DNA from: Lactobacillus hominis DSM 23910 = CRBIP 24.179
GTDB taxonomy: Bacteria; Bacillota; Bacilli; Lactobacillales; Lactobacillaceae
Direction of reading: 5' to 3'
Assembly (NCBI RefSeq): GCF_000296835.1
Contig: NZ_CAKE01000002.1
Location: 62,001 to 126,000 of the forward strand
DNA: 64,000 bases
Made by a program: the position numbers and the translations under genes. A model generated the notes under the pieces. That model was not told where the DNA came from, did no database searches, and saw nothing but the letters and a program-made list of their open reading frames with translations. The stretch's first letter is position 1. Each line of letters starts with the position of its first letter. Positions 10,445-53,129 of the stretch are shown here, piece by piece.

Positions 10445-10468
10445 CAAAAAACCTCCATTGGAGGCCTT
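10445..10468 (-). terminator. Terminator or attenuator between secE and nusG
   Basis: GGCCTCC pairs with GGAGGTT around AAT and is followed by TTTTTG on the minus strand, 30 bases ahead of nusG. Confidence 0.75.
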
Positions 10469-10482
10469 TTCTAACTGCTCTA

Positions 10483-10511
10483 AGTATATCACAAAATTTC
10501 GATTATAAGAA
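10483..10511 (-). promoter_or_regulatory. Candidate promoter of nusG
   Basis: An extended -10 (TG, one base, TATACT at 10483-10488) with a weak TTCTTA -35 box (10506-10511) at 17-base spacing. The -35 box overlaps the last codons of secE. Confidence 0.6.
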
Positions 10512-10673: not shown

Positions 10674-10677
10674 CTAC

Positions 10678-10827
10678 TTACCTCGTTTCTCTGTGTAAAG
10701 TTTGTTTACCACAGTGTTTACAAAACTTCTTTAATTCTAATCTTTGCGTTCTATTTTTGCTTGCGCTAATTGAATAATTGCGTGAACCGCAAACTGTACA
10801 AGCAAGAGCTGCTTTTTTGACTGCCAT
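10678..10827 (-). CDS. rpmG: 50S ribosomal protein L33 (zinc-binding form)
   Basis: A 49-residue L33 with both CxxC pairs intact (Cys10/Cys13 and Cys36/Cys39, in ACTVCGS and FCKHCGK), so this is the zinc-binding C+ version. The sequence [20 protein letters not shown] is typical of L33. An AGGAGTGG site precedes the ATG. It is the first gene of rpmG-secE. Confidence 0.95.
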
Positions 10828-10849
10828 AAAACCACTCCTAAACTGCAAT

Positions 10850-10888
10850 TATCTTAGCAGAAAAATTGCTTCATAGCAATTACTTTAA
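10850..10888 (-). promoter_or_regulatory. Candidate rpmG-secE promoter overlapping a weak apbE terminator
   Basis: On the minus strand TTGCTA, 17 bases, TAAGAT precede rpmG. The same stretch contains AATTGC-TATGAA-GCAATT followed by five T residues, which can act as a weak terminator for the upstream FMN transferase gene. Confidence 0.5.
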
Positions 10889-10889
10889 G

Positions 10890-11963: not shown

Positions 11964-11978
11964 AAGACTCCATCACAA

Positions 11979-12005
11979 ATAAAAAAGGGCTCTACGCCCT
12001 TTTTA
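11979..12005 (-). terminator. Terminator between the FMN-binding lipoprotein and ApbE genes
   Basis: AAAAAGGGC-GTAGA-GCCCTTTTTT forms a symmetrical hairpin with T tracts in both directions; on the minus strand it ends the lipoprotein transcript 16 bases before the apbE ATG. Confidence 0.8.
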
Positions 12006-12023
12006 AAATATCATGCTCTAAAC

Positions 12024-12950: not shown

Positions 12951-13229
12951 AATTTATTCAACCATCCTATCTATACAAAAATACTCCCACAATTGTGTAT
13001 CTTTTCACACTTCTTAATTCTAGATCACTTGTTAATCGCTTGCAAGATAGATAATCAAATATAGTTTTTGTTTTTTAATATTTGATATTATTGAGTTTCT
13101 TTTCACTTTATATATTGGCTCATAATATTGTGAAGACATAGACATTCTCATATAGCTTTAGTATAATGAGTGCGTAAAATTTCGCTAAGATTTTTTTCTT
13201 AGCTTTATTTAGAAACTGAGGGGGTGTTA
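12951..13229. promoter_or_regulatory. Divergent intergenic region of the electron-transfer locus
   Basis: About 280 bases separate the divergent lipoprotein and ndh2 genes. On the plus strand TAGACA (13139-13144), 17 bases and TATAAT (13162-13167) form a strong promoter for ndh2. A T-rich, low-complexity stretch lies at 13060-13120. No operator palindrome was convincing, and a minus-strand promoter for the lipoprotein could not be fixed. Confidence 0.65.
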
Positions 13230-15122
13230 ATGGTGACCCACAAAAATATTGTTGTTGTTGGGGCTGGTTTTGGTGGCATGTATACCACTAAACGTTTAGC
13301 TAAAAAGTTGAAGAAAAACCACGACGTTACTATTACTTTGATTGATAAGAATCCATTTATGACAATGGAAACTTCATTGCACGAAGTAGCAGCTGCTCGT
13401 GTAAAACCAGAAGCTATTGAATATGATTTGCAACGTTTATTTTCTCGTAGAAAAAACGTTAATGTCGTGACTGACGAAGTTTTCCAAATCGATCGTGAAA
13501 ATAAATGCGTCATGGCAAAGCACGGTTCTTATCCATATGATTATCTTGTATTAGGTATTGGAGCTGAGCCAAACGACTTTGGTACGCCTGGTGTTAAGGA
13601 ACATGGCTTTGTTTTAGGCAACATCGAGGATGCAATTAAGTTAAGAGATCATATCGATGATATGGTACGTTTAGGTGCTCGCGAACGTGATCCCGAAATG
13701 CGTCAAGCTTACTTAAACTTTGTCGTTGTTGGTACTGGTTTCACTGGCACCGAAATGGCCGGCGAATTAAATTCATGGCGTCCAGAATTAGCTGAAAAAT
13801 ATCATCTAGATCCAGATGATATTAAGATCACTATGATGGAAATGGCACCAACTGTCATGCACATGCTTGACAGCTCAGATGCTGCTAAAGCCGTCAAATA
13901 TATGACCAAACACGGCATCGTCATCAAAACTAATACTGGTGTTGTTGGAGTTCATGAAGATTACATCGACTTAAAAGATGGTTCTAAATATCCAACTCAT
14001 ACTTTAATTTGGACTGCCGGAGTTAAAGCTTCAAGTCAAGCTGATAAACTCGGCTTTAAGCAAGGTCGAGGCGGCAGAATTATCGTTAACGAATATTCTC
14101 AAATTCCTGACGATCCTCATATCTACGTCATTGGTGACGTCGCACTTTACGATGAAGACGGAACTGGTCGCGGTCAGCCACAAGTGGTTCAAGGAGCCGA
14201 ATCAGCTGGTAAAACAGCATGGAAGAATATCTTGGCTCAATTAAACAACCAAGATCCGGTTAAATTTAAAGGAAATTATCAAGGTTTCATGGTTTCTGTG
14301 GGACCTGCTTGGGGTGTAGCTTATCTACTTAATACATTTCATTTAAGTGGCTTTTTCGCAATCTTAATGAAAGATTTAGTAGATATGATTTACTTCATTG
14401 AAATTTATTCAGGCTACTATCTCTTCCACTACATCATGAACGAATGGTTCAGAATTAAGCGTCCAACTTTATGGCGTAGAAATCTTAACCGCTACGGCAA
14501 CGTTTTATGGACAGTTCCTTTGAGAATTTTCTTAGGAATGATGTGGTTAGTTGACTGCTGGTACAAAGTTCAAGGTTCTGGTTCATGGTTTACTAATAAA
14601 TTGCAATTGCACTTTCCATGGCTTGTGCAAGCAACTAGTGGGGCTTCAAGCAAGGCAAGTGCAACTAGCGCTGCAAGCAATAAAGCTGCTCAAAGTGCGC
14701 CAGCTATGTTTTCACTAAACTATGATTATGGTCATTCACCAATGCCTGTCTTTGATCAAATGCCACTTTGGATGCAAAATATTACTAAAGTATTTATTCC
14801 AAATAAAGATGTTGCTTTAGCTGCTCAAAAAGCAATGACAGTTACTGAAATCATTTTAGGTTTATGCTTAGTTTTAGGATTTTGTACCTTCTTAGCTGGT
14901 GGTTTAAGTGCTGTCTTTGTAGCAATCTTCTGTTTATCAGGTATGAATTATTGGGTAAATGTATGGATGGTATTTGCTGCAATTGCTGTAATGAATGGCT
15001 CAGGTCGTTCATTTGGTTTAGACATGTGGTTTGTCCCATGGCTTGAAAAAACATTAGGCAAAGCAAGATACGGCGTAATGCGTCCGATATACTATGGCAA
15101 TACTAATTCTGATAAAAAATAG
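13230..15122 (+). CDS. ndh2: Type II NADH dehydrogenase with membrane C-terminus (Ndh2)
   Basis: A 630-residue flavoprotein that oxidises NADH and reduces a quinone without pumping protons. The first Rossmann motif is VVVGAGFGGM (residues 8-17) and the second VVVGTGFTGTE, in the standard NDH-2 fold; IWTAGVKAS and YVIGDVALY are typical FAD-binding elements. Unlike ordinary NDH-2 (about 400 residues) it carries a C-terminal membrane part of about 200 residues, with a Ser/Ala-rich linker and three or four DoxX-like helices, as in the Ndh2 of extracellular electron transfer in Listeria. The ATG at 13230 follows GAGGGGG by five bases. A strong promoter is upstream; eetA follows. Confidence 0.94.
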   Translation: MVTHKNIVVVGAGFGGMYTTKRLAKKLKKNHDVTITLIDKNPFMTMETSLHEVAAARVKPEAIEYDLQRLFSRRKNVNVVTDEVFQIDRENKCVMAKHGSYPYDYLVLGIGAEPNDFGTPGVKEHGFVLGNIEDAIKLRDHIDDMVRLGARERDPEMRQAYLNFVVVGTGFTGTEMAGELNSWRPELAEKYHLDPDDIKITMMEMAPTVMHMLDSSDAAKAVKYMTKHGIVIKTNTGVVGVHEDYIDLKDGSKYPTHTLIWTAGVKASSQADKLGFKQGRGGRIIVNEYSQIPDDPHIYVIGDVALYDEDGTGRGQPQVVQGAESAGKTAWKNILAQLNNQDPVKFKGNYQGFMVSVGPAWGVAYLLNTFHLSGFFAILMKDLVDMIYFIEIYSGYYLFHYIMNEWFRIKRPTLWRRNLNRYGNVLWTVPLRIFLGMMWLVDCWYKVQGSGSWFTNKLQLHFPWLVQATSGASSKASATSAASNKAAQSAPAMFSLNYDYGHSPMPVFDQMPLWMQNITKVFIPNKDVALAAQKAMTVTEIILGLCLVLGFCTFLAGGLSAVFVAIFCLSGMNYWVNVWMVFAAIAVMNGSGRSFGLDMWFVPWLEKTLGKARYGVMRPIYYGNTNSDKK

Positions 15123-15151
15123 GTCAAATAAATAAAAAAGACTTTTAAACA

Positions 15152-15192
15152 AAAAGGCCTTATAGTGTAAAATCAACTATAAGGTCTTTTTT
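15152..15192 (+). terminator. Terminator between ndh2 and eetA
   Basis: AAAAGGCCTTATAGT pairs with ACTATAAGGTCTTTT around a nine-base loop and is followed by two further T residues. An upstream AAAAAAGAC segment could pair instead with the terminal GTCTTTTTT, so two alternative folds are possible. Confidence 0.8.
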
Positions 15193-39828: not shown

Positions 39829-40698
39829 TTACAGATTTAATGCATGTAGCTTTGAAATCTGATAACCATTTCTCAAAAAATGTTCTAATTCTTCGGGTTC
39901 ACGGCCAGTTAATTTTCTAAAATCATTAGTAACTTGGTCTAATTCTCCTAATCTAGCGGCTTGATATAAAGAAGCTTCTAATTTATCGTGAGGATTTTTT
40001 TCAATGAATTTGGCTGACGATAGCGGATTATATCCAATACTTTTTTCTGTTGCACGTGTCATTAAATATGCTAATTCAACCATGTTATAATTTTGCTCCA
40101 TAGTAAGGACGTATTTTTCTCCGTGACCATGCATCATTTTTAACATGCAGCAAGCAGCAATAGCATGCGCGCTGTCATTTTGAGTAATAAAAGATACTGA
40201 TTGATCCTTAACTGGATAACTAATTTCTTTATCCTTAATTATTTGCGATAAAGCCGGTATTAAAGGATCAGCAAATAAACTGTTCTTAATCACAGTATAT
40301 TTTATGTCAGAACCCGCTAACCTACGCAAAGCATACCCATAAAAAGGAGATAAAAGATAGGGATTTGCTTCTTGATCCGCAAAAAAACTCACAAATATTA
40401 AGGTTGCTTGAATTTGCTGGACATTTTCTAAAATACGCTCGAAATGTGCAATACTTGTAGATAAATCTTCTTGTTTGGGGATATAAACTATCACATTAGT
40501 CTGATCCATTGCTTTTTTTATTGAATCATTAGCTTCATAATCCACAAGAACCGTATCAATTTTTAACTTTTTAAAGAAATCTCTTTTACCTGAATCAGAT
40601 ATTCCAACTCTAATATTACCAACTTCTGTCATTTGCATTAACCATTGTGCAACTTTTTCTCCAAGAGTCTCATCTGCATTCATTATCAAGTATTTCAT
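39829..40698 (-). CDS. NAD(P)-binding NmrA-like protein
   Basis: A 289-residue Rossmann-fold protein of the NmrA/QOR2-like atypical SDR group. The N-terminus MKYLIMNADETLGEKVAQWL has the beta-alpha-beta layout, but the usual GxxGxxG is altered to NADETLG, so cofactor binding may be changed. Later regions (TVIKNSLFADPLIPAL, LTGREPEELEHFLRN) match the family. Regulatory or reductase role not determinable. It is the last native gene before the integrated element. Confidence 0.75.
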   Translation of the reverse strand: MKYLIMNADETLGEKVAQWLMQMTEVGNIRVGISDSGKRDFFKKLKIDTVLVDYEANDSIKKAMDQTNVIVYIPKQEDLSTSIAHFERILENVQQIQATLIFVSFFADQEANPYLLSPFYGYALRRLAGSDIKYTVIKNSLFADPLIPALSQIIKDKEISYPVKDQSVSFITQNDSAHAIAACCMLKMMHGHGEKYVLTMEQNYNMVELAYLMTRATEKSIGYNPLSSAKFIEKNPHDKLEASLYQAARLGELDQVTNDFRKLTGREPEELEHFLRNGYQISKLHALNL

Positions 40699-40798
40699 AT
40701 CTTATCCTATCTCTCCTGCTTTTTCTTACTATTGTATTATAAAACATTTAGAATCAGATAGAAATTTTAAGTAGTTTTAACTTATCAGACTTATACAC

Positions 40799-40826
40799 AA
40801 AAAGCATCCCAATAGGGATGCTTTTT
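40799..40826. terminator. Displaced native terminator of rplM-rpsI
   Basis: AAAAAGCATCCC-AATA-GGGATGCTTTTT, a perfect 12-bp stem usable in both directions. Before integration it would have lain about 20 bases after the rpsI stop on the minus strand; the element now separates the two by 10.5 kb. Confidence 0.85.
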
Positions 40827-40843
40827 GAAATATAACGTAATAT

Positions 40844-40863
40844 AAATATTAACGCTTTGAGAA
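40844..40863. repeat. attL: left 20-bp attachment repeat
   Basis: A perfect 20-base direct repeat (AAATATTAACGCTTTGAGAA) of 51385-51404. Fifteen of its bases are a copy of the rpsI tail (the last four codons and the stop). Confidence 0.88.
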
Positions 40864-41040
40864 CTTGGGGTTAATAAAACTAGAACATTAATCAATAATT
40901 AAGGAGTAATATCCTCCTTTATCCTTACAAATTAGCTTTAATTTCGATAAAGTATGGATAAATTAGTAACATTATTCATTAAAAAGGATATCTTTTTTCC
41001 CATTTTTGACCAATAATGACCATTTGGTCGATTACCTTAC

Positions 41041-41072
41041 TAAGTTTCATCTAATCGGATGAAACTTTTTTT
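41041..41072 (+). terminator. Plus-strand terminator at the left end of the element
   Basis: AAGTTTCATC-TAATCG-GATGAAACTT followed by TTTTTTATT. It points away from the left end; in the excised circle it would end transcripts coming from int. It also overlaps the last codon of the restriction gene. Confidence 0.75.
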
Positions 41073-44000
41073 ATTCTTCAATTTCTAACTTTGGTAACTG
41101 ATTAATCAAATCAACAGTTTGAACTGAAACATTAATAATACTTAGCAATAAATTAAAAATATATTTTGGATCATCACTAAAATCATTTGGATCATCTGTA
41201 ATACCAGATTTTTTATCTGTCTTAACTTGATATTGATCCATAATCCATTCAATTGCTGAACGTCCATTCACAATATATTGATAAGCTTTTTCAGGAATGT
41301 TTTCAATTGTAATTGAATCATTAAAAATTATAGTAGATTTATCTTTTTCAAGTTTACCTTCAGAACTTCTCTTTTTAGCAAACTTCATTTTCTTAACTTT
41401 ATAGTCAGGAATTCCTTGATACTTAATGTTAACTTTCTCATAAGCTGGTACTTCTTCATAATTTAAATGAAGGTTAATGAGTTCCCCCCCAATTTTTACA
41501 AAAGACTCTTTATTAGTTACATTTGGAATATGAGGCAAACTTTTGGCAAGATCTTCATAATATTTCTCTTCATATTCTTTAGAATGTAATAATCCATACA
41601 CATAATTTAATACATCTCTTTCCGAAAGATCAGCAAATTTTTCTTTTAATATTTTGATATTCACACCTGAGTAACTACCCATATTATCATAGAGATGTTT
41701 TGGAAAATTTTGAGAACCGCCAGAGAATAAATTTACGTCTGGCAATATATTAAGTGCCAGAGAAGTTAAAGGCTTACCTTCAGTCTTATTAGAAAGACTT
41801 ATTAATAAATTTTTAGAAGTACTATCAGGAAATAATTTGGTCAACTGATACTGCCGGTCTACCATATCTTTTTGATAATATACCCATTTTTTAACAAATG
41901 GTCTGTACATTCCTTTATATATTCTTTTTTTATCAAAACTTATTTTTTGATATTTCTCGAATTTTTGCTTCAATGTACGTGTCCAAGAAATTTCCTGTGA
42001 AGATATATCATAAGTAGTTCTATCACCTAAATTATCATTATAATAATTTATTGATTTTTTAACGTTTTCCTCTACATTATCCTTTGAAAATCCCCATGAC
42101 CATGCATCACGCCCTGTTTTTAAGCCGCCAGAATAATTCGTGAATAAAGCATTATTTTCTTTTTTATTACCAAGTGACGTTAACAAATCAAAATTACTAT
42201 TTCGTTGATTTATCCAATCCCCCTTCTCATTTGGTTCAATAACTTTTAAATGTTGTCGATTAAATAAAGTTTCTATACTTTCCCATTCTTTCAATTTATC
42301 TAATTTATCTTTTTTAGATAATCCATCTCCAATATTTTTGTAGTATAACTTATGCGGTGCAAAATCTGTATTATCCTTTATAAGCAACACAATGGCTACT
42401 CCAGTCATAATATCAAAGATATTTCCTCCTTCTTTGATTGCTTGCGCACGAGTTCTACGTCTTATTTGTCCTTTTAAATCTATGATAACAATTGTATTAA
42501 ATTCTTCATAAAGAGCTTTCCTCATTCCGTCCATGGCATTTCCATCTAAGTAAGATGAATTGGTTATAAAACCAATAATTCCCTTTGATTCTAGTCTATC
42601 CGCCGACCAGCGGAGAGCCTTAATATAGGTATCACTTAACCCATTCTTATTTGTAACTGAAGATGTATCAGTCCACTTTTTCTTTAATGACTTTTCAAGA
42701 ATTGGATAATCCATTCTCTTTATATTATTGTCTTCATTACTTTGTTTTGCCGAATAAGGTGGATTAGAAATAATAGCAGTAATTGGAACTTCTTGTTGCT
42801 TATTTAATCTTTCATTATTTGTACCAAACATATCATCATCTAAAGTATCTTCTCGTTCAGTACTTTCAAATGTATCAGTCAAAACAATACCTTCAAAAGG
42901 TTTATAACCTTCATCAGGCCCATTAATTTCATCAAAAACTGCTTCTATATTAATGGCCGCAATATAGTAACTTAATAAGATGATCTCATTTGCATGTAAT
43001 TCATGCATATACTTTCTTAAAATATCATCATAAGTTATCTTGCCTTCATCCATTTGTTGTTTCAAGTAATACAAGGTTCTAGTTATGAAAGTACCTGTTC
43101 CAGTAAATGGATCTAAGATATGCACATTTTCACTAGCCAAAGACTTGTTAAAGTACTTCTTTAACGCCCAATCTACAGAATGAACAATAAAATCAACAAC
43201 CTCTACTGGAGTAAAGACAATACCCATTGATTCCGTTACTTTTGAAAAGGCTGTTTTAAAGAAATTATTATAAAGTTGAATAATAAATTTCTGCTTTCCT
43301 TGAATATTATCAATTCCACTAGCTCGCAGTTTAACAGATTCATAAAATGGCTTAAGTGATTCTTGCTCTTTCTTAAAACCAAATACATTAAAAGCAGATA
43401 CAATATCATTCATAGATTTTGAAATTGCATTGTTACGTACAAAATCGTATTCACCAAATAGAGCATCAAAGATTGGTTCAGTAATTAAATGTTGTGCCAA
43501 CATTTGAACTGCTTGTTCTTGATCAACGGAATCATTAATATTGAATCTCAATGACTTCAAGAACTTATCGAAAGCAATTTTTGCTCCTTGATTACTTTCA
43601 ATCAAATCATTAATTCTTCTCTGATACATTTGGGCAATTTCAGCCACATCTTTTGACCAATCTTCCAGATAACGGCGATCTCCAACTTTTTGAACTACCT
43701 TACCATAAAATGCATTTTGCATTTCTTTCCAATCAAGCGGAAGTTCAAGTTGTTCAGATTGTTCTTCTTCCGTATTATCTTCTGTTACCGGAGAATCTGG
43801 ACTTGAATCTATTCCAATAAAATTAATTCTTCCTGATTTCTTCTTATTCAAATCAAGTGTATTAACTTCTGCATCAAAACGTTCATCTGTCGAGCGCAAG
43901 GCATTTAGCACCTGCCACACTTGTTTATATTGCTTGTTATTATCTAAAACAGTGTTTGGATTTACTCCTTTAGCTACAACTATTGGAAGAATAATATAAC

Positions 44001-45777
44001 CATAATCTTTATTTTCAGCTTTACGCATAATTCTTCCTACTGCTTGCACAATATCTACTTGTGACTTTTTAGGACTAAAGAAAATAATCCCATCTAAATT
44101 AGGTACATCAATACCTTCAGTTAAGAAACGGACATTAGATAATATTCTAGCTTGGTTATTCTCAATATTTTTATCACCTAACCAGCTAATTTCAGTTTCT
44201 TTTTCCATGGCATTGAAACTACCATCAGCATGGTGCACATCTACCTTAAAACTTTCAGTTGATTGAGTATCTAAGTATTCATTAACCACTTGATTAAATT
44301 CATTCGCAATAGTTTTTGAATGTTTAATTGTGTCAGTAAATGCAATAGCTCTCTTCAATGGTGCACCAGTAATTTCACCTGTTACTCCATTACGCTTAAC
44401 CATCGCATTCCAAACACCAATAATTTTTCCAATATCATCTACTTTTAGGTCATTATCTGCTGATAATAATCTCTGCATATCTTTATTAATATAAGATTCA
44501 TCTACAGCAAGAACTGAAACTTTATAATCAGTTAGATAGCCTTGTGCAACTGCATCCCCAAAACCTAATCTAAAAATTTCTTCGCCATAGATATCTTTAT
44601 CATCCATAGAAGCAACTACAATACTATTTTCTTTAGCTTTTTTCTTGGATGATTGGTCATAAATCTTAGGTGTGGCAGTTTGATAAAGTCTTAATTTTCC
44701 TTTGACATGATTATTAGAATGAATCTCAGTAAAGGGACTATCTCCCTCTTTTTCAGCATAAGAAGAAGCCGTTCTATGAGCTTCATCTGCAACAATTAAA
44801 TCAAATTCTGGAAAACCATTTTTTTGGGCCTCCTTAATAACATCAATTGACTGATACGTACTAAAGACAACCGTCATATTATTAGGAAGTTTATGTTCCT
44901 GAATTAATTTATAATGATTAACTAAATCTTCTACATTAGTAGTTGGTTCAAAACCAATATCAATTGCACCTAAATCATCATCATTAGTACTTTTTTTCTT
45001 ATTAGCTTTTCTATCAGATACTACGGATAATGATGTCATATGAATATCTTCGCTAACATCATCATTCCAATTGAATAAAGTTTGAGATAGAAGTTGAATA
45101 CTTGGTACTAAATAAAGAACTTTAAAATCTTTTTTCTTTTGCTTACGCATCTCTGCTTCAGCAATTTTAAGACTAGTAAAAGTTTTACCAGTACCGGGAG
45201 CCATTATTAATTTTCCTCGATCACGATCTTCAAAGTAATTAACTGCATTGTTAATCGCTTTTTCTTGATATGGTCTTAATTTTTTTGGCTTCTTAACAGA
45301 AAGATTTTTATTTTCTTTTGCAAAAGAAAACTTTTCCCAATCAAAGTTAGCATGCTTTAGTTGATTTAAGCCAATACGAGTAAAAGGTTTAGTTGTATTT
45401 TCTAAAGTAGCCTGTGCATTCTTATTCCATTCATCAATAGTTGATACTACCATGCCTGCCGAATAAGCATCTTTTGCAGTTTCGGCAACAAATGAATCTA
45501 TTTCAGATTTTCCAATCTTCCCCTTATAAAATTTGGCCTGAACAGCAGTTAAATTTCCATTATAATCCTTAGCTACAATGTCAACTCCAGTATCCTTTTT
45601 AGAAATATGATATTCTTCTGGCACTTCATTAAGCATCCAAACATCTTCATATTTTTGTTTATAAGTAGGCTCATTTTTTAGGTAAGCAACAACCATTTTT
45701 TCAAAAGCTGTTCCCCGATCACGTTGCTTATCTAAATTATCATTAACCTGTTCAATTAACTCTTCAAATGTGGCCAT
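41071..45777 (-). CDS. Type ISP-like single-chain restriction-modification enzyme
   Basis: A 1568-residue protein with all parts of a Type ISP enzyme such as LlaGI/LlaBIII, which have about the same length. The N-terminal Mrr-like nuclease has TGVDIVAKDYNGNLTAVQAK (Asp66, Gln80, Lys82). The SF2 helicase/translocase has Walker A APGTGKT (193-199) and DEAH (331-334). After a helical coupler, the gamma-class N6-adenine methylase has motif I LDPFTGTGTF (about 887-896) and IISNPPYSAK (about 1004-1013); the target-recognition domain fills the last 300 residues. It cuts DNA after translocation from an unmethylated asymmetric site and methylates one strand. GAGGAG precedes the ATG. No frameshift was seen. 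Confidence 0.93.
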   Translation of the reverse strand: MATFEELIEQVNDNLDKQRDRGTAFEKMVVAYLKNEPTYKQKYEDVWMLNEVPEEYHISKKDTGVDIVAKDYNGNLTAVQAKFYKGKIGKSEIDSFVAETAKDAYSAGMVVSTIDEWNKNAQATLENTTKPFTRIGLNQLKHANFDWEKFSFAKENKNLSVKKPKKLRPYQEKAINNAVNYFEDRDRGKLIMAPGTGKTFTSLKIAEAEMRKQKKKDFKVLYLVPSIQLLSQTLFNWNDDVSEDIHMTSLSVVSDRKANKKKSTNDDDLGAIDIGFEPTTNVEDLVNHYKLIQEHKLPNNMTVVFSTYQSIDVIKEAQKNGFPEFDLIVADEAHRTASSYAEKEGDSPFTEIHSNNHVKGKLRLYQTATPKIYDQSSKKKAKENSIVVASMDDKDIYGEEIFRLGFGDAVAQGYLTDYKVSVLAVDESYINKDMQRLLSADNDLKVDDIGKIIGVWNAMVKRNGVTGEITGAPLKRAIAFTDTIKHSKTIANEFNQVVNEYLDTQSTESFKVDVHHADGSFNAMEKETEISWLGDKNIENNQARILSNVRFLTEGIDVPNLDGIIFFSPKKSQVDIVQAVGRIMRKAENKDYGYIILPIVVAKGVNPNTVLDNNKQYKQVWQVLNALRSTDERFDAEVNTLDLNKKKSGRINFIGIDSSPDSPVTEDNTEEEQSEQLELPLDWKEMQNAFYGKVVQKVGDRRYLEDWSKDVAEIAQMYQRRINDLIESNQGAKIAFDKFLKSLRFNINDSVDQEQAVQMLAQHLITEPIFDALFGEYDFVRNNAISKSMNDIVSAFNVFGFKKEQESLKPFYESVKLRASGIDNIQGKQKFIIQLYNNFFKTAFSKVTESMGIVFTPVEVVDFIVHSVDWALKKYFNKSLASENVHILDPFTGTGTFITRTLYYLKQQMDEGKITYDDILRKYMHELHANEIILLSYYIAAINIEAVFDEINGPDEGYKPFEGIVLTDTFESTEREDTLDDDMFGTNNERLNKQQEVPITAIISNPPYSAKQSNEDNNIKRMDYPILEKSLKKKWTDTSSVTNKNGLSDTYIKALRWSADRLESKGIIGFITNSSYLDGNAMDGMRKALYEEFNTIVIIDLKGQIRRRTRAQAIKEGGNIFDIMTGVAIVLLIKDNTDFAPHKLYYKNIGDGLSKKDKLDKLKEWESIETLFNRQHLKVIEPNEKGDWINQRNSNFDLLTSLGNKKENNALFTNYSGGLKTGRDAWSWGFSKDNVEENVKKSINYYNDNLGDRTTYDISSQEISWTRTLKQKFEKYQKISFDKKRIYKGMYRPFVKKWVYYQKDMVDRQYQLTKLFPDSTSKNLLISLSNKTEGKPLTSLALNILPDVNLFSGGSQNFPKHLYDNMGSYSGVNIKILKEKFADLSERDVLNYVYGLLHSKEYEEKYYEDLAKSLPHIPNVTNKESFVKIGGELINLHLNYEEVPAYEKVNIKYQGIPDYKVKKMKFAKKRSSEGKLEKDKSTIIFNDSITIENIPEKAYQYIVNGRSAIEWIMDQYQVKTDKKSGITDDPNDFSDDPKYIFNLLLSIINVSVQTVDLINQLPKLEIEE

Positions 45778-45826
45778 GATTTTCTCCTCGTTAAATTGAT
45801 TCTTAATAATCCCATTATACCGAACC

Positions 45827-46468
45827 CTAATTAATTGAAGTAATATTTCTCAAAATATTATCAAGCAGTATTAACGTTACTTTTTCTTCAATTTTAGTCA
45901 CAGAGGTATTCAAAGGTAATTGTTTTAATTCATTTTCAAAATCAACTTTTTTAAGACAACCAATTAAATAATTTTCGACTTCATTTTTCCAATCACTTTT
46001 TTTCCTATTATTATGCTTCAACAAAATAAAATAAGAAATCGTAGCTACATAATTCTCTAAATTCTTATTGCGAGAATTGAAACTATTAATTAACAGATCT
46101 GCCAAATGGATACCTTGTTCCTCATTTGGCTTTTTTAAGTTTTTCAAAGTCTCAGAAACAAATTTTTCAAAATATGAATAAAATTGGTTATTCGACTTAA
46201 AGACTATTTTAAATAGATCATAACCATTGATTTCTTCAACTTCTTTTTTTCGTTTACTACCATCTCTTTTCAACCAAAGGAACAATAATAACTTATTTAC
46301 TGTTGGGTCCTTAGTCAATCGACTGTATCTTATACAACCGTTAAGCATATCTTCACTCAAATGAACTTCATCAATGTTAAATTGTTGAATCAACGACCAT
46401 AACTTTTTTTCTAATCTAGTTACAGAGCCCTCCTCTGTAGCTATTTTTTTCACTAATTTTGACCGCAA
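45827..46468 (-). CDS. Unknown protein encoded ahead of the restriction enzyme
   Basis: Up to 213 residues, Lys/Asn/Leu-rich, apparently all-helical and soluble, with no signal peptide or membrane segment. No known domain was recognised. It ends 49 bases before the restriction gene, on the same strand, so they probably share a transcript. The 5' end is doubtful: the frame opens with a TTG at 46468 that touches a TATAAT box and lacks a ribosome site, while a good GAGGAGG lies 35 bases inside without a start codon at normal distance. A leaderless GTG at residue 6 is possible. It could be a regulator, an anti-phage partner or a modifier of the restriction enzyme. Confidence 0.6.
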   Translation of the reverse strand: MRSKLVKKIATEEGSVTRLEKKLWSLIQQFNIDEVHLSEDMLNGCIRYSRLTKDPTVNKLLLFLWLKRDGSKRKKEVEEINGYDLFKIVFKSNNQFYSYFEKFVSETLKNLKKPNEEQGIHLADLLINSFNSRNKNLENYVATISYFILLKHNNRKKSDWKNEVENYLIGCLKKVDFENELKQLPLNTSVTKIEEKVTLILLDNILRNITSIN

Positions 46469-46490
46469 TTATAACTATGAGCATGCTCTT
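46464..46490 (-). promoter_or_regulatory. Promoter and palindromic operator candidate for the defence genes
   Basis: On the minus strand a perfect TATAAT lies four bases after GAGCATGCTC, a perfect 10-bp palindrome that would sit between the -35 and -10 boxes. No good -35 box is seen, which suggests an activator or a repressor-controlled weak promoter. Confidence 0.5.
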
Positions 46491-46606
46491 GCCTCTCTTT
46501 CTTTTTATCTATGAATTCATATTTTCAATGATAAAAGAAATAAAACTTAAGCAGGCGATAGCTCAAACTTGAGAAAATTTAGGCAATTTTTTTGATTCGC
46601 ATAATT

Positions 46607-46655
46607 AAAAAAGTACTCAAAAAAGCCTATGAATTAAAGCCTTTGAGTACTTTTT
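46607..46655. terminator. Bidirectional terminator between the divergent halves of the element
   Basis: AAAAAGTACTCAAA pairs perfectly with TTTGAGTACTTTTT; the long arm extends through AAAGC/GCCTT. T tracts are present in both directions although the flanking genes diverge. Confidence 0.75.
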
Positions 46656-46901
46656 CAAAATAGTCTAAAAATATCTAATATTGTGCCATTAATTTATTTT
46701 GATTAAATTTTACAAAATACCCTCACCAAATAAGATAGATATTTACTTCAATATTGTTACTTAAAGCAAAGGGGAGTAACTTGTAAATCTTTTATCTTAA
46801 CATATATCATTTCAAAAATATTATTTGCTAAAATACCATAAATTCTGCTCATTTTGTTGGTAAATTCTTGTAAATTATTTTCATCTTTTTACCGACTTTT
46901 T

Positions 46902-46949
46902 TAAGTAATAAAACTCTAGAATAAATTCCAGAGTTAAGTTATTAGCTTA
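46902..46949. repeat. Nested inverted repeat ahead of the mobilisation operon
   Basis: TAATAA-AACTCT-A-GAAT-AA-ATTC-C-AGAGTT-AAG-TTATTA: a hairpin of 6+4 bp with one mismatch, with outer TAATAA/TTATTA arms. It lies 40 bases before the first ORF and could be an operator, terminator or Rep/relaxase site. Confidence 0.55.
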
Positions 46950-46989
46950 GCTCGTCATAATAAAAAAGAAAGGAGCTTTTCAAAATATT

Positions 46990-47298
46990 ATGAAAAGACG
47001 AAATTTAAAAGCTGGTTATACCAAGGAGACAGCAGAAGCATATTTAAATCTCGAAGCACCTATCGTACTTTTAAGTACATCAGTCGAGGTTCAACATGTG
47101 TGGTCTGACGGTCATAGAACGGATGAAATCAGTGGTTATCAGGCATGGTTCGCTCAGGAAGGGGCAGGTCCATTTAAAGTTAAGTTTGTAAACAAACCAA
47201 TCCTTCCAGCTTATTTAAGCACAGTGAAGTTTGAAAAATTAGAGGCATGCGAAGTGCGAAATAATGTTTATTTTAGAGCTTCAAAATTGAAAGGATAG
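46990..47298 (+). CDS. Small accessory protein of the mobilisation module
   Basis: A 102-residue protein with beta-rich character (VLLSTSVEVQHVWSDGHRTD, GPFKVKFVNKP, FEKLEACEVRNNVYFRASKL). Size, position and fold pattern are like the first genes of Tn916-type modules (DUF961-type proteins), but the similarity is too weak to name. GGAGC precedes the ATG, and the FtsK-like gene follows three bases after the stop. Confidence 0.72.
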   Translation: MKRRNLKAGYTKETAEAYLNLEAPIVLLSTSVEVQHVWSDGHRTDEISGYQAWFAQEGAGPFKVKFVNKPILPAYLSTVKFEKLEACEVRNNVYFRASKLKG

Positions 47299-47301
47299 AC
47301 T

Positions 47302-48378
47302 ATGGATTTTTCAAGTTTAGAAAAATATCTACTTCAATGTTTAAATATGTCTCTTGATGCAGATAGTTCTGAGACAAGTTATACTAATAGTTTTACGGTT
47401 AAAATTGAAGAAAAAGGGTTCAAGTGGATACCAAGAATGCCAACCACTTTATTGATTAACGCTGATTTATATCAGAAAATCTATGAGATTGCTAATATTG
47501 CCCTTTATCCTGAATACACACTTTTAAAAGAAAATAGTGCATATGTTGTTCCCGAAAATTTAGAGGATATTCATATTGAACGAGCTTTATTTTTTCCATG
47601 GAAAAAAGGTATTCCTCAGAGAATCAAATTTAAAAATCTATTAGAAAATATTTCTAATACGAATAATCAAGACATAATTCCTTTGATGAAAAATTTAATT
47701 CTTGACTACAACAAGGTTACTAGTATGGCTATAGCTGGTAATAGTGGCAGTGGAAAAAGTTATTTTCTGACTTATCTATTAACTTTGCTTAACTCTTTTT
47801 CCGATTTAATCATCGTTGATCCTAAGATGGACAGTCCTGCTCGTTGGGCAAGAGAATTTGAAGTAAAGGCACTCTTTCCTCTCAGTAATAGGTCTAAATC
47901 AGATTTTATCTCGCAAATAAACGATGAGCTATCCCTAGCTTTAAACATTATCTATCAGCGTCAACGTCAACTTTATGCTAACCCCCATCTTACTTTTAAA
48001 AATTACACGATTGTTATTGATGAGGTTCTAGCATTGACAGAAGGAGTTAATAAATCAATAAAGGGAGCATTTTATGCCCTCCTAACTCAAATCGCATTAA
48101 TGGGACGTGCAACCAATGTTCATTTGATTTTAGTAAGTCAAAGGTTTGATCATAATACTATTCCAGTCTCTGTTAGAGAACAATTAAACGTATTAATACA
48201 GTTAGGCAATATAAATGCAAAAACGACTCAATTTCTGTTTCCAGATTTTGAACCTAGTGGAATTGTAATTCCCCCTGGCAAAGGTACAGGATTAATTCAA
48301 ATTATTGATGACATCCATCCTTATCAAGTTCAGCCATTTCTTGCCCCAACGTACAATTTAGAAGGAGTAACTATATGA
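47302..48378 (+). CDS. FtsK/TcpA-type DNA-translocating ATPase (coupling protein)
   Basis: A 358-residue FtsK/SpoIIIE-like ATPase. Walker A is GNSGSGKSY (residues 146-154), IVDPKMDSP follows strand 2, Walker B is TIVIDEVLAL (236-245) and the sensor region LILVSQRFDHNTIP. The N-terminal 120 residues have no clear membrane helix. The protein would bring the relaxosome to a conjugation pore supplied by another element. The stop overlaps the next start (ATGA). Confidence 0.87.
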   Translation: MDFSSLEKYLLQCLNMSLDADSSETSYTNSFTVKIEEKGFKWIPRMPTTLLINADLYQKIYEIANIALYPEYTLLKENSAYVVPENLEDIHIERALFFPWKKGIPQRIKFKNLLENISNTNNQDIIPLMKNLILDYNKVTSMAIAGNSGSGKSYFLTYLLTLLNSFSDLIIVDPKMDSPARWAREFEVKALFPLSNRSKSDFISQINDELSLALNIIYQRQRQLYANPHLTFKNYTIVIDEVLALTEGVNKSIKGAFYALLTQIALMGRATNVHLILVSQRFDHNTIPVSVREQLNVLIQLGNINAKTTQFLFPDFEPSGIVIPPGKGTGLIQIIDDIHPYQVQPFLAPTYNLEGVTI

Positions 48379-48902
48379 ATAATTACTCTAAAATCTATAA
48401 CACAATTTTTCTCACTTTATCTTCTGGTATAAGCATTATTGGCATAGCTATTTTAAGTTTAATAATAGCTTCACTTTTAAATACACCCATTCTAAATATT
48501 TTATTTAGTGGAATTATATTGGCTTTAGAGAGCCTTAGTTTAAATTGCTTAACAACTGTAATTTTTATCCTTTTAATTGGAACTGTTATTGTAATATATC
48601 TAGAATCTACAGCTCAACATTTTTTCACATTTGAAGATTTTAAACTTACTTTCAAGATGAGACACTTTATTAAATACGGTCACTTTATATATCGCCGGTG
48701 GTTGTGCAAATCATACGTAAAAATTACAGACTCTAAAATTCAAGCATTTATCAAAACACCATTTGATCAAAATGAGCTTCAAAGCCTTAAAAATACGATT
48801 CCTTTGCTTTTTGAAGAAATAACTACCAGTCATCCTGAATACACATACTCCGGTTTTGCTAGAGAAAAAGGCTATTACATACTTAAAGGATCAAAAATAT
48901 AA
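48375..48902 (+). CDS. Membrane protein of the mobilisation module
   Basis: A 175-residue protein with two membrane segments (about residues 14-36 and 44-75) followed by a basic cytosolic domain of about 95 residues. It overlaps the ATPase gene by four bases. Because the coupling ATPase lacks its own membrane anchor, this protein may anchor it; that is inference from context. No domain was recognised. Confidence 0.75.
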   Translation: MNNYSKIYNTIFLTLSSGISIIGIAILSLIIASLLNTPILNILFSGIILALESLSLNCLTTVIFILLIGTVIVIYLESTAQHFFTFEDFKLTFKMRHFIKYGHFIYRRWLCKSYVKITDSKIQAFIKTPFDQNELQSLKNTIPLLFEEITTSHPEYTYSGFAREKGYYILKGSKI

Positions 48903-48903
48903 A

Positions 48904-48949
48904 AATAAAGGCGTGCTTTTGCATTAAGCAAAGAAGCAACGCCTTTATT
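48904..48949. repeat. Long hairpin upstream of rep (candidate origin/nicking region)
   Basis: AATAAAGGCGT pairs with ACGCCTTTATT (11 bp); inside, GCTT/AAGC and TGC-ATTAA-GCA continue the stem. A second stem GCATTTGA/TCAAATGC encloses a 14-base loop at 48955-48984, and a third (GCACA/TGTGC) lies at 48983-48994. Confidence 0.65.
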
Positions 48950-49017
48950 AATAAGCATTTGATGGGCTTGTTATTCTCAAATGCACAACTGTGCAAGTGT
49001 GCAGAAAGGTTTAAATT

Positions 49018-50025
49018 ATGAAAAAAAGATTTCGTCAATTTATGTACACTCAAGATTTGGATCATCTACCGTTCAATATAAAGAGTCTTCAATCTCTCAT
49101 TAAGACAGAACCACTAGAAGAATGGGCCTATATCATTCATGACAAAGATAAAAATGAGGATAATACACCAATTCGAAAACATCTACATTTAGTTCTTAAA
49201 TACAAAAATCCTCAAACTTTACATCATATAAGTAATTTACTAACTGATAAGGATCAATACTTTGAGATTTGGAATGGCCGCATTAATAATGCCTACAGTT
49301 ACCTTATCCATGCAACCAATGAAGCTAGAGAAAAATACCAATATTCTCCTTCAGAAGTAACCGCCTCTTTTAATTTTGAAAAAAGAATTTCCAAAATTAA
49401 AGATAGTATCTCAAACTCTAACAATAAAGTTCAAACTTATATTCAACGATATGCCGAAGAAGAGATATCTTACAAGCAACTAATAGATCAAATTGGTCTT
49501 ATCAATATCGCAAAAAATAAACGTTTAATAGATACAATTCAAAATCTATTAATTTCAAAACATCATCAAGAATGGCTCCATAATTTTGAAGGTAAAAAAA
49601 TGATATGTCTATGGTTATGGGGTGACGCTGGTGTTGGAAAAACAACTTATGCTAAAAAATTGTTAAGTCAAGAAAATTATATAGTTCTAGGTAGTAGCAA
49701 TGATTACTTTCAAAACTACACTGATGAGTCTTTTGCGATAATTAATGATTTGCGTCCTGAAGATTGGAAATATGCTGACTTATTAAGACTGCTTGATCCA
49801 TATGAACATAATAAAATGGCACCCAGCCGATATCATGATAAGGAATTGAATTTGGAAATGATTATTATCACAACTCCCTATTCTCCCCAATCTTTCTACC
49901 ACAATTCTCGAATTTTTAATCCAAAAATAGATTCTTTTGAACAACTTAAACGTAGAATATTTCCAATTCACATTACTCCTGAATTCATTAGGAAGGAAAA
50001 AAGCTATGGGTATTTTGCTAACTAG
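49018..50025 (+). CDS. HUH Rep/relaxase with SF3-like helicase domain
   Basis: A 335-residue protein. The N-terminal HUH nuclease of the Rep_2 type has HLHLVL (residues 55-60) and a Tyr motif NNAYSYLIHATNEA (about 90-103) with Tyr93/Tyr96 as candidate nucleophiles. The C-terminal part is an SF3-like P-loop helicase: Walker A WGDAGVGKTTYA (201-212), Walker B FAIINDL (239-245) and motif C MIIITTPYSP (281-290). This layout is shared by plasmid and CRESS-DNA-virus Reps and by relaxases of certain streptococcal mobilizable elements. It should nick at an origin hairpin and start rolling-circle replication or transfer. AGAAAGG precedes the ATG. Confidence 0.85.
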   Translation: MKKRFRQFMYTQDLDHLPFNIKSLQSLIKTEPLEEWAYIIHDKDKNEDNTPIRKHLHLVLKYKNPQTLHHISNLLTDKDQYFEIWNGRINNAYSYLIHATNEAREKYQYSPSEVTASFNFEKRISKIKDSISNSNNKVQTYIQRYAEEEISYKQLIDQIGLINIAKNKRLIDTIQNLLISKHHQEWLHNFEGKKMICLWLWGDAGVGKTTYAKKLLSQENYIVLGSSNDYFQNYTDESFAIINDLRPEDWKYADLLRLLDPYEHNKMAPSRYHDKELNLEMIIITTPYSPQSFYHNSRIFNPKIDSFEQLKRRIFPIHITPEFIRKEKSYGYFAN

Positions 50026-50194
50026 AGAAGCAGCAGCTAAATATATTGGAATAGATGTTAAAACATTCGATAAAGTTTTTAGAAGTGATCAAGATTTTAA
50101 ACGAATAAAAATCGGAGATCATAGCGAGCGTTTTACTAAAAATTCTATCAATGAATTTATTAATCTTAAAGAAAAAAATCTCAAGCAAATTTGA
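50006..50194 (+). CDS. xis: Excisionase-like (winged-helix/MerR-type) protein
   Basis: A 62-residue basic DNA-binding protein starting MGILLTREAAAKYIGIDVKT, the helix-turn-helix start of Xis/HTH_17 proteins. Its ATG is eight bases from AAGGAAGG and lies within the end of rep (20-base overlap). A longer in-frame start was rejected. It precedes int, in the usual xis-int order. Confidence 0.82.
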   Translation: MGILLTREAAAKYIGIDVKTFDKVFRSDQDFKRIKIGDHSERFTKNSINEFINLKEKNLKQI

Positions 50195-50199
50195 GTCCC

Positions 50200-50248
50200 G
50201 GTTGATTATCTGCTACTTTAATTATTAGTAAGGTAATCGACCTTTTTT
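50200..50248 (+). terminator. Terminator or attenuator between xis and int
   Basis: GGTTGATTATCT pairs at all 12 positions (with three G-U) with AGGTAATCGACC and is followed by six T residues. It ends 20 bases before the int ATG, so it limits int expression. Its right arm is the 18-bp segment found also at the left end. Confidence 0.8.
50225..50242. repeat. 18-bp segment shared with the left end of the element
   Basis: TTAGTAAGGTAATCGACC occurs here and as its exact reverse complement at 41025-41042. Possible integrase/excisionase arm site. Confidence 0.7.
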
Positions 50249-50267
50249 GAGAAAGGACGATTTTAAT

Positions 50268-51320
50268 ATGGCAAGTATTGAAAAACGTGGTTCTTCGTAT
50301 AGAGCACGTATTTCTATTTATTCACATGGAAAGGCAGGTTACATTTCCAAAACATTTAAGACCAAAAGAGAAGCAAAGATTTGGGCTACTACCCTTGAAC
50401 TACAAAAAGCACAAGGTAAAAATATTGCTACTCAAAATACTTTATTCAAAGACTTTTATTATCTTTACGTTTACACAATTAAAGTAAAAGATGTGAGAGT
50501 TGCTACTTTTGATAACTATGTTAAAGCAGGAAAAGTTATTGAAAAATTGTTTCCAAAATCCAAACTTGGTCAATTAGATGATACTCAAATGCAAGCAGTT
50601 TTAGATAAATACGGAGAAACTCATTCTAAAAAAACAGTCACAGAATTATTAAAGAAAATTCGAACTGCCTTGCGTTATGCATATACCAAAGGTTATATTT
50701 ATCATGATTTTGCTAGTTTACTTAAAGCTCATGGTAAAGAACTTCCTAAAAGAAACAGGGCATTAAGTATTTCAAATTTAACAAAATTAAAGCATTACTT
50801 ATTAAATCATACCGATAAGGAATTTAATGTAATGTTACTTTTAGAAATTAGTACTGGAATACGAAGAGGAGAAATGTTGGGAATTAAACCAGAAGATGTT
50901 CATTTCGATGGTGAATATTACTGTGTTGAAATTAAACGATCAATTAGCCCCACTAATTCTGATACTGCTTTAAAGACAAAACATTCTAGACGAAGTATTA
51001 CTATTCCGAAAAATATTTACGATCTTTTAAAGCAATTATCTCCTAAGGAAAATGGCTATCTTTTTGATAACTTTAATTATCACCATTCAGAAATGCTAAA
51101 AAAACTACTTAAAAATATTGGTATTCCTCCAACCACATTTCATGGATTACGTGATACTCACGCTTCTTTTTTATTTAGTAATAATCTTCCATTATCCTAC
51201 GTTAGTCGAAGATTAGGACATGATTCCATTATTACAACTGAAAAATATTATTTGGAATTAATGCCAGAAAAAAAGCACTCGCAAGATGCGAATGCTTTAA
51301 ATCTATTAGATGATCTATAG
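50268..51320 (+). CDS. int: Tyrosine site-specific integrase
   Basis: A 350-residue phage/ICE-type integrase. An N-terminal arm-binding domain (ASIEKRGSSYRARISIYSHG, AP2-like), the SAM-like core-binding domain (about 60-160) and the catalytic domain are complete: Arg199 in STGIRRGEM, His292 and Arg295 in FHGLRDTHA, His318 in LGHDS and Tyr327 (TTEKYYLEL). The ATG at 50268 has AAGGA upstream. It integrates the element at the rpsI tail: the right attachment repeat begins 64 bases after its stop. Int is convergent with rpsI. Confidence 0.95.
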   Translation: MASIEKRGSSYRARISIYSHGKAGYISKTFKTKREAKIWATTLELQKAQGKNIATQNTLFKDFYYLYVYTIKVKDVRVATFDNYVKAGKVIEKLFPKSKLGQLDDTQMQAVLDKYGETHSKKTVTELLKKIRTALRYAYTKGYIYHDFASLLKAHGKELPKRNRALSISNLTKLKHYLLNHTDKEFNVMLLLEISTGIRRGEMLGIKPEDVHFDGEYYCVEIKRSISPTNSDTALKTKHSRRSITIPKNIYDLLKQLSPKENGYLFDNFNYHHSEMLKKLLKNIGIPPTTFHGLRDTHASFLFSNNLPLSYVSRRLGHDSIITTEKYYLELMPEKKHSQDANALNLLDDL

Positions 51321-51384
51321 GATTTAACCCAACTATGACCATCCAATATAATACAAACGTTGATATAACAATATTTCGAAATTG

Positions 51385-51404
51385 AAATATTAACGCTTTG
51401 AGAA
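51385..51404. repeat. attR: right 20-bp attachment repeat within the rpsI tail
   Basis: A perfect copy of 40844-40863. It covers the last four codons (FSKR) and stop of rpsI plus five bases beyond, so integration restores an intact S9 reading frame. Confidence 0.88.
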
Positions 51405-51785
51405 TTGTGAAGCTTTGCGGGCTTTCTTCAAACCTGGCTTCTTTCTTTCCTTCATTCTTGGGTCACGAGTTAACATGCCAGCCTTCTTTAATGGGCTACG
51501 GAAATCAGGATCTACTTCAAGTAAAGCACGTGCAATACCTAAACGAATTGCACCAGCTTGACCTGAGAAACCACCACCGTTAACGTTAACTAAGATGTCG
51601 TATTGACCTTCAGTTTCAGTTAATGCTAATGGTTGCTTTAAGTCTTGTACTAAGTTTGGATAAGGAATGTACTTAGTAACATCTTCTTTATTAACAGTAA
51701 TTTTACCGTTACCTGGTACTAAACGTACGCGCGCAACAGAATCCTTGCGGCGACCAGTTCCAGCGTAAGCTGCTTGTTGTGCCAT
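51390..51785 (-). CDS. rpsI: 30S ribosomal protein S9
   Basis: A 131-residue S9 with [19 protein letters not shown] at the N-terminus and the invariant C-terminal [12 protein letters not shown] tail, which reaches the P-site tRNA. Its last codons are the integration target of the mobile element; the frame is unaltered. Its former terminator now lies at 40799. It follows rplM by 14 bases. Confidence 0.98.
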
Positions 51786-51798
51786 TGATTAAAACCTC

Positions 51799-52242
51799 CT
51801 AGATTAATTCGTTAATGTCTAACTTTTCAGGCTTTTGTGCTGCATGTTCGTGATCTTCACCAGCATAAACATGTAACTTCATGAATTCTTGGTGACCAAG
51901 AGTATTCTTTGGTAACATGCCCTTAACAGACAATTCAACCAATCTTACTGGGTTCTCAGCTAATAATTCACCTGCTGGAGTAGCTCTTAAACCACCACGG
52001 TAATCTGAGTGGTGGTAGTAAATCTTGTCAGTTGCCTTTTTACCAGTCAACTTCAACTTACCAGCATTTACAACAATAACGTTGTCACCAGTATCTACAT
52101 TTGGTGTATATTGAGGTTTATTCTTACCTCTTAAAATTGATGCTACAGCAGTTGATAATCTACCAAGTGCAACATCAGTTGCATCGATAACATACCACTT
52201 ACGCTTAATATCACTAGTTTTTGCTAATGGGGTAGTACGCAA
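51799..52242 (-). CDS. rplM: 50S ribosomal protein L13
   Basis: A 147-residue L13 ([19 protein letters not shown], then GMLPKNTLG). The TTG at 52242 lies eight bases after GGAGG and gives the family's length; the longer frame upstream runs through the leader and was rejected. It forms an operon with rpsI. Confidence 0.96.
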
Positions 52243-52347
52243 TTTGAATTCCTCCGTTTTCTTGTGTTTGACAAACAATAAGTTTCCGGGGCCTATCGTG
52301 GACAAACATACGTATATTAATTTACGTCGTTTTTGCCCAAATGTCAA
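52243..52347 (-). promoter_or_regulatory. Promoter and L13-type leader of rplM-rpsI
   Basis: A perfect TTGACA (52342-52347, overlapping the truA stop), 17 bases, TAAATT (52319-52324). The 70-base leader contains GTTTGTC/GTTTGTCAAAC-type complementary segments and GGCCCCGGAAAC, resembling the Rfam L13 leader of Firmicutes; exact assignment needs a covariance search. Confidence 0.7.
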
Positions 52348-53129
52348 TGTTTTTTCTTATCTAACCGATATTTTTCAGGAACTTCATCATAAAAAACATG
52401 ATATAAATATAATCCACTTGCAGGTGCCGTAGTTCTTACTTCTTGCCGATCTTTAGCTGCAATAACTCTTTGTAAATCATGAACTGGACGTTTTCCGTTT
52501 CCGATTTCAAGGAGCGCCCCAACCATAATGCGCACCATATTATACAAAAACCCATTTCCGATAAAGTCAAACACGATCTCTTTATCTTCTGGCTTAGACT
52601 CAATATTCACATAATAAATTGTACGTACTTTATCGATTATTTGTCCGCCACTTGCTGCGAAACTTGTAAAATCATGCTCACCTAATAAGTCTTGGGCTGC
52701 AATCTTCATTTTTTCAATTTCTACAGGATAAGGATAGTGCCCTGTGTAAAATCTCTTAAAAGGATCAGTAAAATGGTGCTGATCAACAATATATCTATAC
52801 CACTTACCTTTAGTTGAATATTGGACATGGAAATCTTTATCAACAATTTCACTCTCTGTAAACAAAATATCTCTTGGCATCAGAGAATTAAGTGCCATCA
52901 TCATATTTTTAGCAGGTATTTTACCCGGATAATCAAAGTGAATAACCTGCCCTTTAGCATGCACTCCAGCGTCAGTTCTGCCTGATCCATGCACTACAAC
53001 TCTTTGCCCTTTTGTCATTTTTAGTAGAGCTTTTTCTATCTCACCTTGTACAGTTCGTTGATTAGGTTGAATTTGAAACCCATGAAATAAATGACCATCA
53101 TAAGTCATTTTCATCTTATATCTTGTCAT
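52344..53129 (-). CDS. truA: tRNA pseudouridine synthase A
   Basis: A 261-residue enzyme that modifies U38-40 in tRNA anticodon arms. The catalytic Asp is in [31 protein letters not shown] at the start and [17 protein letters not shown] are family hallmarks. Of two adjacent ATGs the second (53129) was preferred; ribosome-site evidence is weak. It follows ecfT by 10-13 bases. Confidence 0.95.

Follow-up and report, generated by a model that had tools for sequence, protein, structure and literature searches.

An integrative mobilizable element at rpsI of Lactobacillus hominis, with a probable replacement terminator for rpsI embedded antisense in its integrase gene

The stretch of DNA analyzed here (the window; 64,000 nucleotides of contig NZ_CAKE01000002.1 from Lactobacillus hominis DSM 23910 = CRBIP 24.179) contains a 10.5-kb element inserted at the 3' end of rpsI, the gene for ribosomal protein S9. 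It belongs to a described type of integrative mobilizable element (IME) and carries a type ISP restriction-modification (RM) gene. We consider it likely that a terminator of its own, antisense within its integrase gene (int), replaces the native rpsI terminator that the insertion displaced. Targeting of rpsI is ordinary; the replacement terminator, as predicted from sequence, is the part that we have not found in print.

A sequence-only reading of this stretch had bounded the element by an exact 20-bp repeat, and both copies were confirmed: AAATATTAACGCTTTGAGAA occurs at 40844-40863 and at 51385-51404, 10,541 bp apart (start to start), with no other exact match in the 1.93-Mb genome. No further copy with up to three mismatches was found in the window (0.06 expected per shuffle; two copies in 0 of 100 shuffles), and ungapped extension of the repeat gives 35 nt at 86%. 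The right copy is indeed the rpsI 3' end, covering the last four S9 codons and the stop codon plus 5 nt, and the earlier claim that integration restores the S9 tail is borne out by this attachment (att) core, which re-creates it. The same reading had taken the end of a ribosomal protein gene, not a tRNA gene, as the target; ARAGORN finds no tRNA in the window, and a tRNA target was rejected. Taken together, these data support integration of an element at rpsI, with an att core that restores the end of S9. The G+C content of 1-kb intervals drops modestly, from 0.32-0.37 on the left and 0.33-0.42 on the right of the element to 0.27-0.34 inside it.

The stop codons of int and rpsI are separated by 69 nt that are free of terminators. 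On the rpsI strand, a hairpin (51298-51272) begins 94 nt after the rpsI stop. It has 12 pairs, 5 of them G-C, and a loop of 3, followed by a T-run, which is the predicted form of an intrinsic terminator, and it folds at -15.3 kcal/mol as compared to -17.6 kcal/mol for the native hairpin. A scan of positions 40700-52500 yielded 12 terminator-like sites (4.5 expected), among which this hairpin has the longest stem; the displaced native-type hairpin at 40799-40826 is not listed by the scan, its T-run falling within the stem.

The sequence-only reading had proposed a comparison with strains in which rpsI runs directly into the hairpin at 40799-40826, and such empty sites were found in sister Lactobacillus species, the comparison being between species with one genome each. 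Behind one empty site (L105) lies an ortholog, 49% identical, of the gene on the left flank of the element (39829-40698). A 264-base query from the left boundary, comprising the native-type terminator and the att core, gave some match in 39 of 75 genomes, partly only to a hairpin elsewhere, and the left boundary resembles DNA that continues straight into rpsI in many members of the genus. Of the 57 genomes with a match, 30 yielded an rpsI locus, that of the window included, and all 30 loci have a terminator whose start is no more than 120 nt past the rpsI stop. Its median start is 27 nt in the 28 loci without this integrase beside rpsI; in the two loci with it (L103, the window, and L107), the terminator starts at 94 and 95 nt, inside int. 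Comparable elements lie between such boundaries at L144 (4.9 kb, with no Rep or excisionase match), L145 (10.1 kb) and L147 (11.2 kb). At L146, a 2.5-kb remnant is left at rpsI, in which int matches as fragments only and hairpin-like sequence is still visible by eye, and the integrase of genome G013 (L005, L150) has an internal stop.

Integrase relatives were found with six peptides, and the best 80 of 87 were used. With those of the window and L004, this makes 82 integrase genes, of which 61 are near full length and 79 have an in-frame KKH motif (all but L089, L090 and L098); 25 genes with less than 85% nucleotide identity served as representatives. The relatives include Enterococcus, Streptococcus, bacilli, Lactococcus and Veillonella, and the streptococcal integrases at rpsI tails are 53-55% identical to that of the window. 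An rpsI-tail motif was present between -60 and +200 nt from the projected int end in 73 of the 80 relatives (median 69 nt; 0.0004 expected per interval). The motif belongs either to rpsI or, where elements are arrayed in tandem, to an att copy; a match to rpsI stands directly at the int end in 50 of 82 loci. Twenty-seven of the 73 relatives have a second tail on the left side. L084, with two candidate left tails, was excluded from the count of left-end terminators; of the 27 left ends that remain (26 relatives and the window), 23 have a terminator, read here as the displaced one, no more than 160 nt beyond the left att.

Some observations on the distribution of these integrases stand apart. 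Tails flank the integrase's own tail on both sides in L034, L055 and L068, suggesting tandem elements at rpsI. One contig (L247, OR846602.1 34145-36349), deposited under the name Enterococcus phage Efs 1-1-1 (unverified), encodes a 53% identical integrase together with the hairpin and an rpsI tail; because of these features it probably contains host chromosome. No integrase relative was found in a collection of viral contigs.

The embedded hairpin recurs among the relatives. A terminator scoring at least 26 starts 84-113 nt after the stop of the tail in all 73 relatives with a tail, and also in L004 and L005; it lies inside the projected int gene in 71 of the 73. In L089, L090 and L098, the hairpin is present although the int frame is broken or short as read. 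When each gene was recoded synonymously 1000 times according to its own codon usage, 2.1 of the 25 representatives were expected to score at least 26, and 22 do; for the window, none of the 1000 recodings reached the observed score. Scores under 26 were obtained for L046, L073 and L074, and that of L059 does not stand out (125 of 1000 recodings). Agreement among codons in the representatives, reflecting synonymous conservation, peaks at residues 333-350. Across 25 distinct hairpin versions, 93.7% of cells pair (90.5% in shuffles), two-sided changes number 8 (1.7 in shuffles) and the covariation score is 0.253 (0.199 in shuffles). None of 500 shuffles reached the observed value of any of these three measures, with all five versions that lack the hairpin (L073, L074 and L094) or have a weak one (L046 and L072) retained in the test.

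Several loci have a terminator outside int. In L073 and L074, the int codons form no hairpin, and a longer gap (127 and 125 nt) holds a terminator at 87-88 nt; in L094, the int codons have drifted and a hairpin is present behind int. Seven relatives have no tail at the int end; in four of them (L059, L061, L063 and L072), int does not abut rpsI, and a terminator made of other sequence is located 85-88 nt past the rpsI stop. Where an integrase has an rpsI tail but a different C-terminus (L226, L227, L230 and L245), the gap holds a terminator that begins roughly 26-30 nt beyond the stop of the tail. Among 17 less related integrases of the genus, none has an embedded hairpin and 12 have a terminator beyond int (threshold 20). 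We think it probable that: the Bacillota integrases that insert behind rpsI evolved a 3' end coding on both strands; integrases of other types use a terminator in the gap; and replacing the lost terminator would then be a general need of elements that insert at the 3' ends of protein genes. Judging from sequence, the use of the antisense strand of an integrase gene as the replacement terminator of the interrupted gene appears to be widespread in related elements of many other bacteria.

Several observations limit this interpretation or weigh against it. The int leucine codon 347 (51306-51308), outside the hairpin, is TTA in 23 of 25 representatives and thus as conserved as the hairpin itself. 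Two pairs show a two-sided change, a number matched in 96 of 500 shuffles and not unusual; the same is true for further pair types (88 of 500). One locus (L099) has a second terminator in the gap, and the displaced terminator was not seen at 4 of the 27 left ends. One search peptide, ELMPEKKH, overlaps the start of the hairpin-coding segment, so that conservation of the peptide there, but not codon choice, is partly ascertained. Finally, a set of 60 integrase 3' ends, hand-chosen from listed places in 11 other genomes and mostly long open frames, contained 6 with an embedded antisense hairpin (threshold 22); four of the 60 (L226, L227, L230 and L245, see above) have an rpsI tail, all four with a gap terminator. 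As a separate matter, the last codons of two integrases of another type, away from rpsI tails (L205 and L211), also hold an antisense hairpin and T-run (scores 26 and 24), perhaps a second case of the same trick. An excess of wobble pairs on one strand (46 to 3 in the 25 distinct versions and 38 to 2 in the 25 representatives) was rejected as evidence because random synonymous codons already yield a ratio of about 8.7 to 1.

The hairpin might be a mere by-product of the conserved integrase peptide PEKKHQQDADAL, without any role for rpsI. This would be consistent with the peptide being unchanged in 62 of 79 integrases, and the recoded peptide often gives a weaker hairpin, with simulated mean scores of about 18-24 (HQQ/HQH) and about 4-6 (Lactobacillus, L067). 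However, scores in 22 of 25 representatives are above those from recoding, paired changes alter the peptide yet keep the pairing (as in the window, with SQDAN), and terminators stand at an equal distance outside int in L073, L074, L059, L061, L063 and L072. We regard a by-product as very improbable. It is also improbable, in our estimate, that the palindrome works for int, either by structuring its mRNA or as a DNA site for the integrase or excisionase, and not as a terminator for rpsI. The palindrome can fold on both strands, with a mean of -7.7 kcal/mol on the int strand versus -12.8 kcal/mol on the rpsI strand, and the wobble asymmetry, given its null ratio, does not decide the matter. Opposing this idea, 21 of the 25 versions carry the T-run of a terminator on the rpsI strand, a terminator keeps its distance from rpsI where int is elsewhere, and none of the 30 genus loci lacks a terminator within 120 nt of rpsI.

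A different doubt concerns mobility: the element could be an immobile relic or a satellite unable to transfer. In its favor, and against the IME scheme proposed here, no helper is seen: the 99.93%-complete genome yielded neither a TcpC match nor an AAA_10 match above the cut-off. On the other hand, the main open reading frames (ORFs) are open and both att cores are identical; an IME needs a helper by definition, and the helper may come later. An immobile relic or satellite is rather unlikely in our view.

We propose that the integrase, aided by the probable TGACCA arm sites on both sides, would recombine attP with the rpsI 3' end, leaving the S9 product unchanged because it uses DNA that encodes the S9 tail and stop. 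The insertion would shift the native rpsI terminator 10.5 kb away, and the element would compensate with its own terminator on the rpsI-coding strand, 94 nt past the rpsI stop and within the last codons of the convergent int. One stretch of DNA would then specify the C-terminus of the integrase on one strand and the end of a ribosomal transcript on the other. The excised circle would be nicked and replicated by Rep, and the FtsK/TcpA-like protein, as a coupling protein, would pass it to the conjugation machine of another element; as no helper match was obtained in this genome, the helper would have to arrive. The host would probably profit from the type ISP enzyme, as a defence against phages.

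Elements of this kind are generally regarded as sparing the host, since they re-create the end of the target gene. A rebuilt coding end alone seems insufficient: the end of transcription would be rebuilt too, within a gene that is read in the opposite direction. A replacement terminator would explain a conserved feature of the integrase gene that is invisible to protein comparison, could serve as a criterion for spotting true right ends, and may explain why decayed elements retain the last piece of int.

All of the genes that the sequence-only reading had placed in the 10.5 kb (integrase, excisionase, Rep, FtsK-type ATPase and restriction enzyme) are present (Table 1). The int start is taken as the ATG at 50268, which is preceded by a ribosome-binding site, while the ORF listing gives a TTG at 50247. 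The FtsK/TcpA-like protein matches FtsK_SpoIIIE with 25.4 bits (cut-off 24), no single stretch passing by itself, and is 62-63% identical to FtsK-annotated plasmid proteins among the matches listed. Its weak match to a terminase model (E 7.7e-9) is below the FtsK-like match (E 3.5e-18). Packaging or capsid-remodelling genes mark phage-inducible chromosomal islands and phage satellites; none is among the annotated families of the element. Family annotation also found no mating-pore families among its proteins. A second set of orf102-like, FtsK/TcpA-like and orf175-like genes elsewhere in the genome (L155, G000:C15, ~4165) perhaps belongs to another IME or a plasmid.

Table 1. Features of the rpsI element and its boundaries (window coordinates)
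Feature	Coordinates	Strand	Remarks
Displaced native-type rpsI terminator	40799..40826	-	beyond left att; counterpart directly follows rpsI in sister species
Left att core	40844..40863	+	exact copy of rpsI tail
Two TGACCA repeats 10 bp apart, probable integrase arm sites	41007..41022	+	
18-nt perfect inverted repeat, left arm	41026..41043	+	left end of element
Inward-reading terminator near left end	41042..41067	+	would stop int transcripts in circular form
Type ISP RM enzyme, 1568 aa	41071..45777	-	LlaBIII/LlaGI type; cargo
213-aa ORF, no assigned function	45827..46468	-	30% relative adjoins orf102 in L026
orf102, no assigned function	46990..47298	+	upstream of FtsK-like gene in relatives too
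FtsK/TcpA-like ATPase, probable coupling protein	47302..48378	+	
orf175, no assigned function	48375..48902	+	
Rep/relaxase	49018..50025	+	PF01719 83.3 bits and PF00910 34.7 bits, both over cut-off; HLH, YLIH and Walker A motifs
Probable excisionase (xis), 62-aa helix-turn-helix protein	50006..50194	+	phrog_668 matched by longer ORF 49937-50194
18-nt perfect inverted repeat, right arm	50225..50242	+	between xis and int
int, tyrosine integrase, 350 aa	50268..51320	+	PF00589 63.2 bits; adjoins one att site
Replacement rpsI terminator (predicted)	51272..51298	-	12-pair hairpin and T-run; int codons 335-344, antisense to int
TGACCA, probable right arm site	51336..51341	+	two 10 bp apart in L144, L145 and L147
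Right att core	51385..51404	+	rebuilds rpsI 3' end: codons F-S-K-R, TAA stop, 5 nt more
rpsI, ribosomal protein S9, target gene	51390..51785	-	overlapped by right att core

The type ISP enzyme combines, in one chain and in this order, PF13156, PF04851, PF22240, PF07669 and PF18135, with NPPY and DEAH motifs; a Mrr-type nuclease, helicase, coupler, methyltransferase and specificity domain are all present, as in a type ISP enzyme. Plasmid-borne relatives are up to 65% identical; in Vagococcus salmoninarum (L056) and Enterococcus italicus (L096), relatives of 52% identity are flanked by rpsI tails. At a further locus (L143, G036:C1:366000-385000, oriented 10180-15174), a lone type ISP RM gene, 70% identical to that of the window, sits between two exact att copies at rpsI, each after a native-type terminator, with no match to the integrase; this resembles a cis-mobilizable element (CIME). 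With regard to the ends of the element, the 18-nt inverted repeat pairs the left end with the xis-int gap, and similar imperfect pairs are seen in L145 and L147. The inward-reading terminator is weak as a general feature (8 of 27 left ends versus 6 of 135 control windows).

No report of a replacement terminator was found in the literature searched, subscription papers (mostly) and supplementary files being outside its scope. In the accessible portions of PMC4701971, PMC5357655, PMC5090054, PMC5704250, PMC10117131, PMC7168690 and PMC7563491, the word terminator is absent (as in the main text of PMC5357655), confined to references, or used of the insertion sites of other elements. Already published are rpsI as an insertion target of IMEs and of integrative and conjugative elements (ICEs), the relaxase type, the gene order and the presence of restriction systems in IMEs (PMC4701971, PMC5357655, PMC5090054, PMC5704250).

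The closest described type is streptococcal IME class 4, with the relaxase Rel_PF01719-PF00910 (Coluzzi et al. 2017, PMC5357655), in which the TcpA coupling protein, present in 4 of 15, is optional. The window element has an integrase at its att site, a PF01719 plus PF00910 relaxase, a TcpA/FtsK gene upstream of it and no mating-pore genes of its own; it shares with class 4 the tyrosine integrase, the relaxase, TcpA, the order tcpA-relaxase-xis-int and insertion at the 3' ends of conserved genes, rpsI among them. It differs in its Lactobacillus host and its type ISP gene, the comparison being one of descriptions and not of sequences. In the classification of Coluzzi et al., integrases that target rpsI belong to the families Tyr_4, Tyr_5 and Tyr_7, for which the criterion is more than 40% identity to named members. 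IMESag-rpsI of group B Streptococcus (Lorenzo-Diaz et al. 2016, PMC5090054), about 9 kb and always at the rpsI 3' end, likewise uses a tyrosine recombinase, and its circular form was detected. It has a MOBV relaxase and a Rep_trans initiator in place of PF01719-PF00910. Streptococcal ICEs at rpsI (Ambroset et al. 2016, PMC4701971) share the tyrosine integrase and the target but carry a full conjugation module. The RM-only unit of G036 (L143), between att sites and without an integrase, is similar to the CIMEs in composite elements at rpsI of S. salivarius (PMC7563491); unlike in those, both of its att copies are preceded by a native-type terminator. The type ISP enzyme matches LlaBIII over its full length (4xqk, 1986.5 bits) and the partial-length LlaGI structure (5ffj, 1565.5 bits); its gene resides on a chromosomal element, while the relatives of up to 65% identity are on plasmids.

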